From the NCBI RefSeq assembly GCF_005406125.1, contig NZ_BIXZ01000002.1, positions 558,001 to 622,000 of the forward strand: DNA of 64,000 bases, read 5' to 3'. The DNA is from Haloarcula mannanilytica (lineage in GTDB: Archaea; Halobacteriota; Halobacteria; Halobacteriales; Haloarculaceae). Every line of letters starts with the position of its first letter. Within the stretch, counting starts at the first letter, position 1. This document shows, piece after piece, positions 3,383-63,626 of this stretch. The translations under genes and the position numbers were made by a program. Under the pieces are notes generated by a model that did no database searches, was not told where the DNA came from, and worked only from the letters and a program-made list of their open reading frames with translations.

Positions 3383-3733
3383 GTGGCTGAGGAACAGAGC
3401 ATCGAGGAGATTCTCGATACTATCGGTGATAAGCACGCGCGTCGCGTACTCGCTGCGATCAGTCGGGAACCGCAGTCGGCGAAGGAACTCGCCGAAGAAT
3501 GTGACCTCTCGCTGCCGACCGTGTATCGCCGTGTCGAACTGCTCGACGAGTACGACCTCGTCACCGACCGGACGCTCGTCGCCGAGGACGGGAACCACTA
3601 CAAGGTGTACGAGTCCAACTTCGAGTCGACGGTCATCTCGCTCGAAGACGAGGAGTACAAGGTACGCATCTACCGGGAGGAGAACCTCCCGGACCGGTTC
3701 AGCCAGCTCTGGGACGAGCTGAACCCCGAATGA
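3383..3733 (+). CDS. Winged-helix regulator paired with a small membrane protein
   Basis: A 116-residue protein starting at GTG. Residues about 7-70 form an ArsR-like winged helix: IEEILDTIGDKHARRVL, then SAKELAEECDLSLPTVYRR as the helix-turn-helix and a wing near 60-75. The C-terminal part ends in an acidic helix. No ligand-binding domain is present. The gene is followed 28 bases later by a three-helix membrane protein, and the two resemble the pair at 58770-59464 in order, size and sequence. This layout suggests a DNA-binding protein whose activity is tied to its membrane partner, which is an inference. The start is supported by the TATA box upstream. Confidence 0.75.
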   Translation: MAEEQSIEEILDTIGDKHARRVLAAISREPQSAKELAEECDLSLPTVYRRVELLDEYDLVTDRTLVAEDGNHYKVYESNFESTVISLEDEEYKVRIYREENLPDRFSQLWDELNPE

Positions 3734-3761: not shown

Positions 3762-4061
3762 ATGACGACCGGTGTAGCCATCGCACGTGGCGCGCTCATC
3801 CTGATGCGGATGGTCGTGTTCGGATTGACGCTCGGGATTACGCTCATTAGCTTCCAGGCCTATCGCAAACGGCCTTCTGAACGGTTACAGTCCGCGTTTG
3901 TCGGCTTTGCCTTTATCAGCATGGGCGTCGCTATCTCCAGTGTCATTACGCAATTGAGCGCCGGCGAGACCGGTGCCATCGTTCGCATCTTCTTCCAGAT
4001 GGCCGAGACGATCCCGTTCATCATCGGGTTCGCGATGCTGTACGTATCGCTGTACCGGTGA
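3762..4061 (+). CDS. Small three-helix membrane protein (DUF7521-like)
   Basis: The 99-residue product is almost entirely membrane-embedded, with helices at about 8-32, 43-64 and 72-96 and short charged loops (YRKRPSERLQ between the first two). No catalytic motif is visible. It lies directly behind the winged-helix gene and is probably co-transcribed with it. Its counterpart at 59189 has the same three-helix plan. It resembles what I recall as the DUF7521 group of haloarchaeal proteins; that label is tentative and the function is unknown. Confidence 0.7.
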   Translation: MTTGVAIARGALILMRMVVFGLTLGITLISFQAYRKRPSERLQSAFVGFAFISMGVAISSVITQLSAGETGAIVRIFFQMAETIPFIIGFAMLYVSLYR

Positions 4062-57194: not shown

Positions 57195-57364
57195 GTCACC
57201 AACGCTCCCGTCCGACAGGAAACATCGGCGAACGCGACATCCTCATACCTACTTCCAATTCGCGGTCGGCCCCGAAATAAATACTCCGCCCACGTAATCA
57301 AAGTTGATAGCCCAGCAGGCACCTTTATGCGCCCCTGTCCGCGACAGTGTGGATAAGAACCGCT

Positions 57365-57799
57365 ATGGCAGCCCAGTCAGCCACCACCGGCCAGGTACTC
57401 GAGTTCCAGCTCGGCTCGGAGACGTACTGCGTGAGTATCGACTACGTGACTGAGATCGTCGACATCGGCGAGCTCACGTCCGTTCCGAACGCCCCACCGC
57501 ACGTCCGGGGCGTCATGGACCTGCGCGGGCGCACGACATCGATTGTTGACCCCAAAGTCGTCTTCGGCATCGAGGACGAAGGCTCCGAAAAGCGCATCAT
57601 CGTCTTCGACCCCGAAATCGTCGAGGAACAGGGGGCGGCCGGCTGGCTCGTCGACGAAGTGTACCAAGTGGTCCAGGTCACGCCGGAACAGGTCGACCAG
57701 TCCCCCGCCAACGACGCCGGCTCTATTCGGGGCGTCATCAAGCGAGATGACAGTTTCGTTATCTGGGTGGACCCTGCCGTCGTCCACGCTGGTGACTGA
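57365..57799 (+). CDS. cheW: Chemotaxis adaptor CheW
   Basis: The 144-residue protein MAAQSATTGQVLEFQLGSET has the CheW/SH3-like fold with VEIVDIGELTSVPNAPPHVRG-type strands and DLRGRTTSIVDPKVVFG. It couples receptors to CheA. The gene is divergent from cheB and followed 88 bases later by the KaiC-like ATPase. Confidence 0.92.
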   Translation: MAAQSATTGQVLEFQLGSETYCVSIDYVTEIVDIGELTSVPNAPPHVRGVMDLRGRTTSIVDPKVVFGIEDEGSEKRIIVFDPEIVEEQGAAGWLVDEVYQVVQVTPEQVDQSPANDAGSIRGVIKRDDSFVIWVDPAVVHAGD

Positions 57800-57887: not shown

Positions 57888-58613
57888 ATGATTGAGCAAA
57901 CTAAAACGGGGATCGAGGGCCTCGACGGCATCTTGAACGGCGGCATTGTAAAGAACTCGACGACACTGGTAAGTGGCAACCCCGGAGCCGGGAAATCGAT
58001 TCTCTGTCTCCAGTATATCTACAACGGCGTCGAAAAGTACGACGAGAAAGGGATCTATCTCTCCTTTGAGGAAGACGAATCGGACCTCCGGGAAGCCGCC
58101 GAATCTATCGGCTTTGAGAACTGGCAAGAACACGTCGATAACGGCGATATCAAGGTGTACGACAAGCAGGTCCTCCTGCGCGAGAACGACTTTACTTCCT
58201 CGCTTGATATCCTGCTTGAAGAACTCGAAGACGGCGATTACGACCGGCTGGTGCTTGACTCGCTTGCCATGTTCGAACTGTTCTTCGAAAACGAGAAGGA
58301 GAAACGGACGTACCTCCTGAAGTTCACCGACATTCTCAGTGACAGTGGCCTCACGACGCTGATGACCAACGAGCAAGGGGCCGTCTTCCCGGACACCGAG
58401 ATCGGACTGGAGAACTACCTGACCGACGGCAACATCTACCTCATCCAGACGCCGACCGACACTGGCGTCAACCGGTACGTCTGGGTTGCAAAGATGCGAA
58501 AACAGAACATCGAGACGGACATCTATCCGATGGAGATCAGCCACGGCGGTATCGATGTCCACGAGAACGCCAGTGCCTTTTCGATGATGAGCGAGGAAGA
58601 ATCACCAATTTGA
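57888..58613 (+). CDS. Single-domain KaiC/RAD55-like ATPase in the motility locus
   Basis: The 241-residue protein has TGIEGLDGILNGGI, Walker A SGNPGAGKSILCLQY (GNPGAGKS at 30-37), the acidic FEEDESDLREAAES and Walker B DRLVLDSLAMFEL. It is a one-domain RecA/KaiC-like ATPase; it is separate from the archaellum ArlH in this window, which is not seen. KaiC-like proteins (Cir) in haloarchaea are diurnally expressed. Placement between cheW and the regulator pair suggests a role in taxis or motility control; this is an inference. A ctttttaac sequence near 57831 may be the TATA element. Confidence 0.75.
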   Translation: MIEQTKTGIEGLDGILNGGIVKNSTTLVSGNPGAGKSILCLQYIYNGVEKYDEKGIYLSFEEDESDLREAAESIGFENWQEHVDNGDIKVYDKQVLLRENDFTSSLDILLEELEDGDYDRLVLDSLAMFELFFENEKEKRTYLLKFTDILSDSGLTTLMTNEQGAVFPDTEIGLENYLTDGNIYLIQTPTDTGVNRYVWVAKMRKQNIETDIYPMEISHGGIDVHENASAFSMMSEEESPI

Positions 58614-58735
58614 GGACAGGAACTGGCCATTATTACTCCGTAGAACGGCGGGTACAGACGCATAGAACGCCGTTCCTACACGACTCCCCCGGAACGCGTG
58701 TTTGTCTCTCATGCACTCGATATCACAGGCGATAG

Positions 58736-58743
58736 CTTTATTA
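58736..58743 (+). promoter_or_regulatory. TATA box for the second winged-helix gene
   Basis: ctttatta lies 27-34 bases before the ATG at 58770, the same spacing as for the paralogue at 3383, and supports a leaderless mRNA. Confidence 0.5.
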
Positions 58744-58769
58744 TCGACTGAATTTATGATTTGATAACG

Positions 58770-59105
58770 ATGGATTCAGGGGAGATTCTTCAGACGCTTG
58801 GCAATAAATACAGTGCCGAGATTCTCGATGCGACGGACGAACCGGTCTCCGCACAGGAACTCAGCGACGAACTCGGGATCCCCATTGCGACGTGTTATCG
58901 ACGGATCGACGAACTGACAGAACATAACCTCCTGGAACTCCACGACAACATCCTCTCCGACGACCGCCGCCGTATCAAAGTGTACCGGCGAAACGTCGAC
59001 GAAGTCCGGGTCGATTTCGAGGACGAACTGACGGTCCACATCGAGGAACGGTCGGAAGTGACCAACAAGCTCGACGAGGCGTGGCGGACCCTTTCCGAGC
59101 GGTAG
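58770..59105 (+). CDS. Winged-helix regulator paired with a small membrane protein, copy 2
   Basis: I use the ATG at 58770 (MDSGEILQTLGNKYSAEILD); an upstream TTG would add three residues. The 111-residue protein lines up with the 3383 gene: GEILQTLGNKY against EEILDTIGDKH, SAQELSDELGIPIATCYRRI against SAKELAEECDLSLPTVYRRV, and a matching C-terminal acidic strand. The recognition helix differs at several positions, so targets may differ. The next gene, 83 bases on, is the three-helix partner. It lies just before the archaellin gene and may regulate it. Confidence 0.77.
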   Translation: MDSGEILQTLGNKYSAEILDATDEPVSAQELSDELGIPIATCYRRIDELTEHNLLELHDNILSDDRRRIKVYRRNVDEVRVDFEDELTVHIEERSEVTNKLDEAWRTLSER

Positions 59106-59188
59106 AGCGGCTCAAACCAGCGTTATCACGAGAGATATTTTCGAGCGTGGATTTAATACCGGGTTCGCTGTAGCCATGCATAGTACTG

Positions 59189-59464
59189 ATGATAGAACTT
59201 CTCTACGCCATTTCGACGCTGGTGTTCGTCGTGGCGGGGCTGACAATGGTCGGGATGGCCATGCGGGCGTATGTCCAAACGTCCCGGCAGGCGATGCTCC
59301 ACCTCTCGGTCGGGTTCTCGCTGGCGATTGCGGGGGCGGCCGCCACGATGATTAGTGCGTTTATCAACGACTTCGAGGGCGTGCGGTCGCTTCTGTTGGT
59401 CAACAGCGGCCTCACGACGTTCGGCTATCTGTTCGTGATGTACAGTCTTGTCACGTACGAGTGA
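59189..59464 (+). CDS. Small three-helix membrane protein (DUF7521-like), copy 2
   Basis: The 91-residue protein has helices at about 5-25, 36-58 and 67-88. It has the same topology and gene order as the 3762-4061 protein; the sequences share only limited identity. No charged residues of a transporter type are seen. Together with the winged-helix gene it forms the second copy of the pair. Function unknown. Confidence 0.7.
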   Translation: MIELLYAISTLVFVVAGLTMVGMAMRAYVQTSRQAMLHLSVGFSLAIAGAAATMISAFINDFEGVRSLLLVNSGLTTFGYLFVMYSLVTYE

Positions 59465-59708
59465 CCACCTGCCCTTCGAACACTACTGTGATCGTTCCAG
59501 TCGTATCTTCGTACGCGAACGCCCGTGGCCCGGCAGCCCGTAGGTAAGCTACTGTATAGCTCTCATTTCTACCATTGATAGCGCTGTTTTGACTGTCTCA
59601 AATATGATTTCCAGCGACCAGGAGCGCCCCTACAGTTACAGACCTCGTCTTACACTCTCTACAGCAAGAAATAGTCTCTATAACCGCTCAAACACTTGTT
59701 ATCAAGAG

Positions 59709-59716
59709 CTATAATT
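59709..59716 (+). promoter_or_regulatory. Probable TATA box of the archaellin gene
   Basis: The AT-rich ctataatt block sits about 68 bases before the archaellin ATG, predicting a leader of about 40-45 bases. A second candidate, ctataacc, lies near 59676. Confidence 0.4.
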
Positions 59717-59781: not shown

Positions 59782-60387
59782 ATGCTAACGGAACTTACGA
59801 ACGACGACGACCGCGGGCAGGTCGGTATCGGCACCCTCATCGTGTTCATCGCGATGGTGCTGGTGGCGGCAATCGCTGCGGGCGTCCTGATCAACACGGC
59901 TGGCTTCCTCCAGAGCAGTGCGGAGGAAACCGGACAACAGAGCAGTGACCAAGTGACGAATCGGCTTGAAGTGGTTAACCAGGTTGGTACCGTAACGGGC
60001 GGTAATGTCGATACGGTCGATATAACTGTCAAAAAGGCACCCGGTGCTGGAAATATCGACCTGAGTACGACGATCCTCCAGTTTGTCCACTCAAGCGGCT
60101 CCAGCGACTTGACGTACGCAGAGACGGACAGTGGCAACGGTGAAGACTTCACTGTTACCAGCGTCCAGGATCAGGGTGGAAATTCCATCCAGGACCCGAA
60201 CCCGGTTCTGAACGACCCTGCTGACCGAGCCAAGATCATCCTCGATACGGACGCCATCGTCGGTAACGGTGGATTAGCCGAAGGTGACACGGCTACCATC
60301 CAGATGAACACCCAGTCCGGCGGTACGACCCAGGTTCGACTGGTCGTTCCGGAGACCCTGTCTGGTAACTCCGCAGTCAGCCTCTAA
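59782..60387 (+). CDS. arlB: Archaellin (archaellum filament protein)
   Basis: The start at 59782 gives 201 residues. The N-terminus [12 protein letters not shown] is followed by the hydrophobic helix [20 protein letters not shown], the class III signal pattern cut after Gly12 by the prepilin-type peptidase. The mature protein has a serine/threonine-, asparagine- and glycine-rich outer domain with acidic residues, several N-x-S/T sites and the C-terminal [15 protein letters not shown]. It assembles into the archaellum. Only one archaellin gene lies in this window. The gene has a leader region (see hairpin) and a T-rich terminator. Confidence 0.9.
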
Positions 60388-60477: not shown

Positions 60478-61047
60478 ATGGCTCGGCGGTCAGACGAACC
60501 GAATCCGGAAGAGGGCAAGGTACTCTCGCCCGAAGAGCTCGATATCGCCGACGACGAGCACGTCACCGAGATCGACGAGGGTCGCTACGTCGTCTCGTCA
60601 GATGTCCGCACCGACGACTCCTACGGGAACCAGATCCAGTCGGATTCGGCGTCTGAACCGGCCCCCGAACCCGAACCGGAGCCGTCGACTCCCGAGTTCT
60701 CCGATGCGAACGTCCACGAGTGGCTCGCAGAACAGATGGCCGACTCGAACGCCAGATACGGCTTCGACGTGACCGCGAAGTTCGACGGCGATGTCGACCA
60801 GCAACAGCTCACCTCGAACGACATCGTCACCGTCTTCGAGAGCTTCATGCTCTGGTACGGTCGCCAGATGGACGGTTCCACACCGGTCGAAGAAGTGCTT
60901 GGGATCCTCCTCTCGGAATCGAACGTCCCGGTTCGCTATCCGCCAGCAGTTATCAAACAGCTCGTTCGGTCGACACAGCTGACGCCCGACGATTCTATCG
61001 CTGACCTCTTACAGGCCGTCGAGGACGCTGACGGGGCCGAGTTCTGA
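60478..61047 (+). CDS. Acidic protein of unknown function downstream of archaellin
   Basis: The 189-residue protein starts MARRSDEPNPEEGKVLSPEE. Residues 1-75 are acidic and disordered, with a proline-glutamate repeat (APEPEPEPEP). The rest (about 80-189) is a helical domain with HEWLAEQMADSNARYGFDVT, a FESFMLWYGRQMDGS motif and VEEVLGILLSESN. It resembles a haloarchaeal DUF (possibly DUF7500) associated with motility clusters; the label is tentative. No enzyme motif is seen. It is cytoplasmic and may be a regulator or chaperone for archaellum genes; inferred only by place. Confidence 0.62.
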   Translation: MARRSDEPNPEEGKVLSPEELDIADDEHVTEIDEGRYVVSSDVRTDDSYGNQIQSDSASEPAPEPEPEPSTPEFSDANVHEWLAEQMADSNARYGFDVTAKFDGDVDQQQLTSNDIVTVFESFMLWYGRQMDGSTPVEEVLGILLSESNVPVRYPPAVIKQLVRSTQLTPDDSIADLLQAVEDADGAEF

Positions 61048-63588: not shown

Positions 63589-63626
63589 CCCTCTCTGATA
63601 TCACACGCGATAATTTACGGGACACC

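Follow-up and report, generated by a model that had tools for sequence, protein, structure and literature searches.

A 64,000-nucleotide stretch of the Haloarcula mannanilytica genome (contig NZ_BIXZ01000002.1, positions 558,001 to 622,000; hereafter the window) carries, ahead of an archaellin gene, a winged helix-turn-helix (wHTH) regulator gene and a gene for a three-helix membrane protein of the family DUF7521. The regulator (58770–59105) is almost certainly an orthologue of CsmR (HVO_1209), which governs motility and cell shape in Haloferax volcanii. Genes of these two kinds are paired in haloarchaea far beyond chance, and the module they form is real. By a little better than an even chance, we read the pair in the window as the archaellum regulator CsmR with a cognate membrane protein that feeds back on it, one copy of the wHTH–DUF7521 module. 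The genes on which this reading rests are as follows:

58770..59105, + strand: csmR orthologue, winged-helix regulator of 111 amino acids (aa) with a C-terminal helix (HTH_20 PF12840, 47.9 bits)
59189..59464, + strand: DUF7521 three-helix membrane protein of 91 aa, predicted CsmR partner and target (PF24365, 33.3 bits)
59782..60387, + strand: archaellin arlA (PF01917, 122.5 bits)
57888..58613, + strand: KaiC-like gene, CirA in position and type (PF06745, 167 bits; adjoins csmR across families)

Identity of the regulator

Both open reading frames (ORFs) that a first-pass annotation of the window had singled out, one winged-helix and one three-helix membrane protein, were recovered by Pfam matches, the second also as three helices in an AlphaFold2 model. 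Of 59 haloarchaeal genomes searched with the window regulator, 49 contain a member of a single high-scoring group, which a clear gap in score separates from its paralogues; the genome under study holds 13 wHTH relatives of CsmR. H. volcanii HVO_1209 is not in the genome collections, so H. volcanii is represented by 13 other Haloferax species. In these, the group member immediately precedes two archaellin genes, past which lies a KaiC-like gene in convergent orientation. This matches the order csmR (hvo_1209), arlA1, arlA2, cirA reported for H. volcanii and thereby supports the identification, and the location expected of CsmR, with archaellin genes and a KaiC-like gene nearby, was found. The predicted structure of the regulator has Phr (2P4W) as its best match in the PDB, a match likewise reported for CsmR by its authors (PMC13286277). 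The window shares with H. volcanii the orthologous regulator, a locus of archaellin, KaiC-like CirA and DUF7500 genes, boxes of the operator pattern TATCA-N4-TGATA and a fold match to Phr; it differs in that Haloferax loci carry no DUF7521 gene beside csmR.

CsmR was described in 2026 in PLoS Genetics: in H. volcanii, cells without csmR are non-motile, cells that overexpress it are locked as rods, and TATCA-N4-TGATA occurs in 50 of 65 peaks from chromatin immunoprecipitation (ChIP) of CsmR (PMC13286277). The csmR transcript is kept at a steady level throughout the growth phases, which leads us to expect a post-translational input to CsmR; the study leaves the signal input open (PMC13286277). 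Its main text contains no DUF terms and mentions no such membrane partner (PMC13286277), and the literature that we searched for DUF7521, or for a haloarchaeal pair of winged-helix and small membrane proteins, held nothing relevant. The view that no described system names such a pair as a signalling unit has to be divided: the regulator is now known, while its partner is not described in any of the literature searched. As first noted from the sequence, the regulator has no ligand domain detectable by Pfam, including the AsnC ligand-binding domain (PF01037). The same scan found no histidine kinase or receiver domain, as a two-component system would have, in either protein.

A recurring pair of wHTH and DUF7521 genes

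The AlphaFold2 model of the membrane protein consists of three long helices (residues 2–31, 34–59 and 65–88; predicted local distance difference test score 92.6), and no fold in the PDB matched it with an E value below 0.7. Loop 1, which joins the first two helices, has a basic character in 76 of 79 DUF7521 proteins, and loop 2 does not; by its charge, loop 1 should face the cytoplasm. The genome holds 12 DUF7521 genes, among them one beside a second wHTH regulator elsewhere in the window:

3383..3733, + strand: paralogous wHTH regulator of the same type as csmR (BLAST and Pfam)
3762..4061, + strand: DUF7521 partner of the 3383 regulator (PF24365, 39.6 bits)

The two regulators align over 107 residues with 32% identity (E = 3e-15), as had been proposed. 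The likeness claimed for their membrane partners holds at the level of the family, with both scores (33.3 and 39.6 bits) above the Pfam cutoff of 27 bits for PF24365, but not at that of BLAST similarity (E = 0.22).

We examined 78 DUF7521 copies, from this genome and from 60 regions of other genomes. A same-strand CsmR-type wHTH gene ends 0–400 nucleotides (nt) upstream of 68 of them, mostly at 3–40 nt; as background, only 4 further wHTH matches occurred in 2041 kb, and this genome carries ~3 such wHTHs per Mb. In a second sample, DUF7521 adjoins 13 of 14 wHTH relatives that have a C-terminal aromatic helix, and relatives without this tail are unpaired. The exception (locus L257) is a relative of the 3383 regulator with no neighbouring DUF7521, an apparent loss. 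Distance trees of paired wHTH and DUF7521 proteins agree (r = 0.81; permutation maximum 0.17). Adjacency was thus kept overall when neighbours were compared in other genomes, and these counts and matching trees bear out the proposal of a conserved two-gene unit. A genome may hold up to ~11 different pairs, each with its own regulator. Tandem DUF7521 copies after a single wHTH gene also occur (L006/L012, L215, L225, L235, L246, L264 and L269).

Outside the haloarchaea, a DUF7521-like protein was found in 21 of the searched genomes of other Halobacteriota. At 18 of 20 such loci, the gene directly upstream encodes an Lrp/AsnC-type regulator, with PF01037 present, that overlaps the DUF7521-like gene or lies at most 21 nt away. 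One of the two remaining loci, L276, has a CsmR-like gene, a transposase-like ORF and then a DUF7521 remnant. A third, soluble gene (~135–174 aa) follows downstream in a conserved three-gene cluster (L272–L274 and L277–L291); neither of the two that were tested matched a Pfam family.

As for csmR itself, 27 of 49 genomes have a DUF7521 gene next to it, making 29 loci when two named ones are added. The two genes point the same way in the window's family, as in several more, and are divergent in ten loci, which shows that adjacency survives inversion. No DUF7521 gene lies beside csmR in Haloferax, Halobellus, Halogeometricum, Halobaculum, Halonotius or Natrialbaceae. Across whole genomes, no relative of the window's DUF7521 was detected in five of six Haloferax genomes, and the sixth, H. 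mucosum, gave one weak match. The csmR tree implies 6 changes of adjacency; having few columns and many open forks, it does not fix the ancestral state, and we draw from it no more than that adjacency has changed repeatedly.

This distribution bears on two further explanations. DUF7521 could be an accessory of the archaellum or of its anchoring, with its place beside csmR incidental: it does lie between csmR and archaellin and has a motility-regulon box. Since most DUF7521 copies adjoin wHTH genes elsewhere in the genome, and Haloferax swims without a close relative, we consider this improbable. A toxin–antitoxin pair, in which the DNA-binding protein would repress a small membrane toxin, is less probable still. 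Small membrane toxins are known, and the size and order of the genes resemble some such modules; however, csmR persists alone in whole families and DUF7521 alone elsewhere, the csmR pair passes down together with the archaellum locus on the chromosome, and CsmR controls motility genes (PMC13286277).

CsmR boxes and predicted targets

We scanned for the published pattern TATCA-N4-TGATA, allowing at most one mismatch in the upstream counts and taking expectations from shuffled sequences. As a positive control, the exact motif lies ~100 nt before arlA in Haloferax. Of 29 DUF7521 loci, 17 have a box upstream of this gene (0.2 expected); so do 26 of 129 csmR (0.2 expected), 47 of 147 archaellin (0.6 expected) and 22 of 61 KaiC-like genes (0.2 expected). 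Single sites mean little, as the whole genome of 4.2 Mb has 53 with at most one mismatch, against 33 for a reversed control pattern. Six of them cluster within 9 kb of the locus, against an expectation of 0.13 for 19 kb, and one of these six is among the only two exact sites in the genome; the six lie before cheW, csmR, DUF7521, the cheY–cheC–cheD genes and an ArlCE-type gene, and inside cheB. The names cheY, cheC, cheD and ArlCE come from reading the sequence rather than from family-scan or database matches. Where checked, a TATA-like element follows shortly downstream of the box. Sites and elements in the window are:

58721..58734, unstranded: CsmR-box-like site TATCACAGGCGATA upstream of csmR, predicted autoregulation (motif scan)
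58737..58744, + strand: TATA-like TTTATTAT of csmR (read from sequence)
59124..59137, unstranded: CsmR-box-like site TATCACGAGAGATA upstream of DUF7521 (motif scan)
59152..59157, + strand: TATA-like TTTAAT of the DUF7521 gene, 14 nt past the box (read from sequence)
59700..59713, unstranded: weaker CsmR-box-like site, with 2 mismatches, upstream of archaellin (motif scan)
57296..57309, unstranded: CsmR-box-like site AATCAAAGTTGATA upstream of cheW (motif scan)
63599..63612, unstranded: CsmR-box-like site TATCACACGCGATA upstream of cheY–cheC–cheD-like genes, mostly beyond the window (motif scan)
57356..57799, + strand: cheW (PF01584, 98 bits)
60478..61047, + strand: DUF7500 gene in the conserved neighbourhood (PF24332, 222.7 bits; synteny)

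The order of genes is cheB (minus strand), followed on the plus strand by cheW, the KaiC-like gene, the wHTH gene, DUF7521, arlA and DUF7500. The TATA box reported before the regulator is present, as the TATA-like TTTATTAT. Between csmR and DUF7521 lie 83 nt that contain the TTTAAT at 59152, a promoter-like region of DUF7521's own, so the two genes do not form a tight two-gene operon here. Archaellin is indeed the next same-strand gene after DUF7521, but it does not follow 'immediately', as 317 nt lie in between. Its proposed role as a target is made likely by the published CsmR ChIP sequencing (PMC13286277) together with the CsmR boxes. Because of the boxes before it, DUF7521 is itself a predicted target of CsmR, with high probability; binding of CsmR to its boxes has been demonstrated in H. 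volcanii only (PMC13286277).

Three observations concern the surroundings. An exact CsmR box lies ~2 kb past the window end (L104:15976-15989), 60 nt before an acidic ArlCE-like gene that is followed by ArlF/G-like genes. A box-like site with 1 mismatch falls at the start of a chemotaxis-transducer-like gene (L310:1515; G000:C3:60514). Across many haloarchaeal families, and in Haloferax too, a DUF7500 gene such as that at 60478–61047, whose function is unassigned, stays close to archaellin genes.

The boxes before DUF7521 also speak for a role of DUF7521 as output only, a small envelope or transport protein under control of the neighbouring wHTH that does not act back on it. A regulator with a small membrane effector is a common arrangement, Haloferax CsmR works without DUF7521, and solo DUF7521 genes exist, two of them beside an apparent P-type ATPase gene. 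These two (L217 and L223) lie downstream of that gene and have no wHTH. By contrast, up to ~11 distinct pairs per genome and two types of regulator fit signalling better than one effector function, and the wHTHs themselves lack a ligand domain. We regard the output-only role as possible, at clearly less than even probability; it is the strongest rival to feedback.

Proposed feedback of DUF7521 on CsmR

In the mechanism that we propose for feedback, CsmR would bind boxes just upstream of the TATA elements of csmR, DUF7521, cheW, cheYCD, arlCE and arlA, and DUF7521 would be made together with the motility genes under CsmR control. The C-terminal aromatic helix of CsmR would dock on the basic cytoplasmic loop 1 of DUF7521, which would hold CsmR at the membrane or release it and thus feed back on CsmR activity, as SdpI does on SdpR. 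To such membrane feedback we assign an even chance. Envelope sensing by the membrane protein and its control of the regulator, as put forward in the first-pass annotation, are hypotheses.

The C-terminal helix is a candidate contact site. The last helix of paired wHTHs carries an aromatic residue, which is a tryptophan within the final 22 residues in 55 of 63 proteins and a phenylalanine in most of the others. The aromatic residue is found in all 29 csmR orthologues with an adjacent DUF7521 and in nearly all paired paralogues, and is absent from most of the unpaired wHTH relatives sampled.

In Bacillus subtilis, SdpI sequesters SdpR at the membrane (PMC1626106). There too, a small winged-helix autoregulator is encoded with a membrane protein. 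The window pair differs from SdpR–SdpI in showing no family-level similarity to SdpI and having no known SdpC-like ligand: neither membrane protein matched an SdpI-type Pfam family, and the SdpR model gave no match for the regulator at 58770 and scored that at 3383 at 22.8 bits, far under its cutoff of 100. The pair may therefore work like SdpRI while standing outside that family. ArnR and ArnR1 of Sulfolobus acidocaldarius are likewise membrane-linked helix-turn-helix regulators of archaellum genes (PMC13286277), but unite in one protein the helix-turn-helix and transmembrane parts that the window divides between two. EarA of Methanococcus and Pyrococcus, compared by its description, is a winged-helix regulator of archaellum genes (PMC13286277) with no membrane partner reported.

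Several points weigh against feedback. Contact between CsmR and DUF7521, and control of the former by the latter, are hypothetical; what adjacency and matching trees show is that the two are inherited together, not that they touch. CsmR can do without the partner, for it is active in Haloferax, where DUF7521 is neither its neighbour nor represented by a close relative; some DUF7521 copies also stand alone. The authors of the CsmR study favour CirA as the modifier of CsmR (PMC13286277). The aromatic residue is also kept in 48 of 100 csmR genes without DUF7521 and may thus serve dimerisation instead. Its use as a strict mark of a DUF7521 partner is weakened by these solo csmR genes.

More broadly, and somewhat short of an even chance, we tentatively suggest that wHTH–DUF7521 constitutes an undescribed family of membrane-coupled one-component modules of Halobacteriota, with at most ~11 per genome, in which each DUF7521 would sense a membrane or envelope cue and gate its own regulator. 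CsmR would be the motility member and Haloferax CsmR a derived orphan. If so, the published CsmR phenotypes show half of the system, and the absence of DUF7521 beside csmR in the model genus Haloferax would explain why the partner was overlooked. How CsmR activity is set is open in the only CsmR study found, and an adjacent DUF7521 with a CsmR operator is a concrete candidate. As haloarchaeal genomes each contain many copies of the module, and it is found with Lrp/AsnC regulators in other Halobacteriota, the question bears on a whole unassigned protein family.
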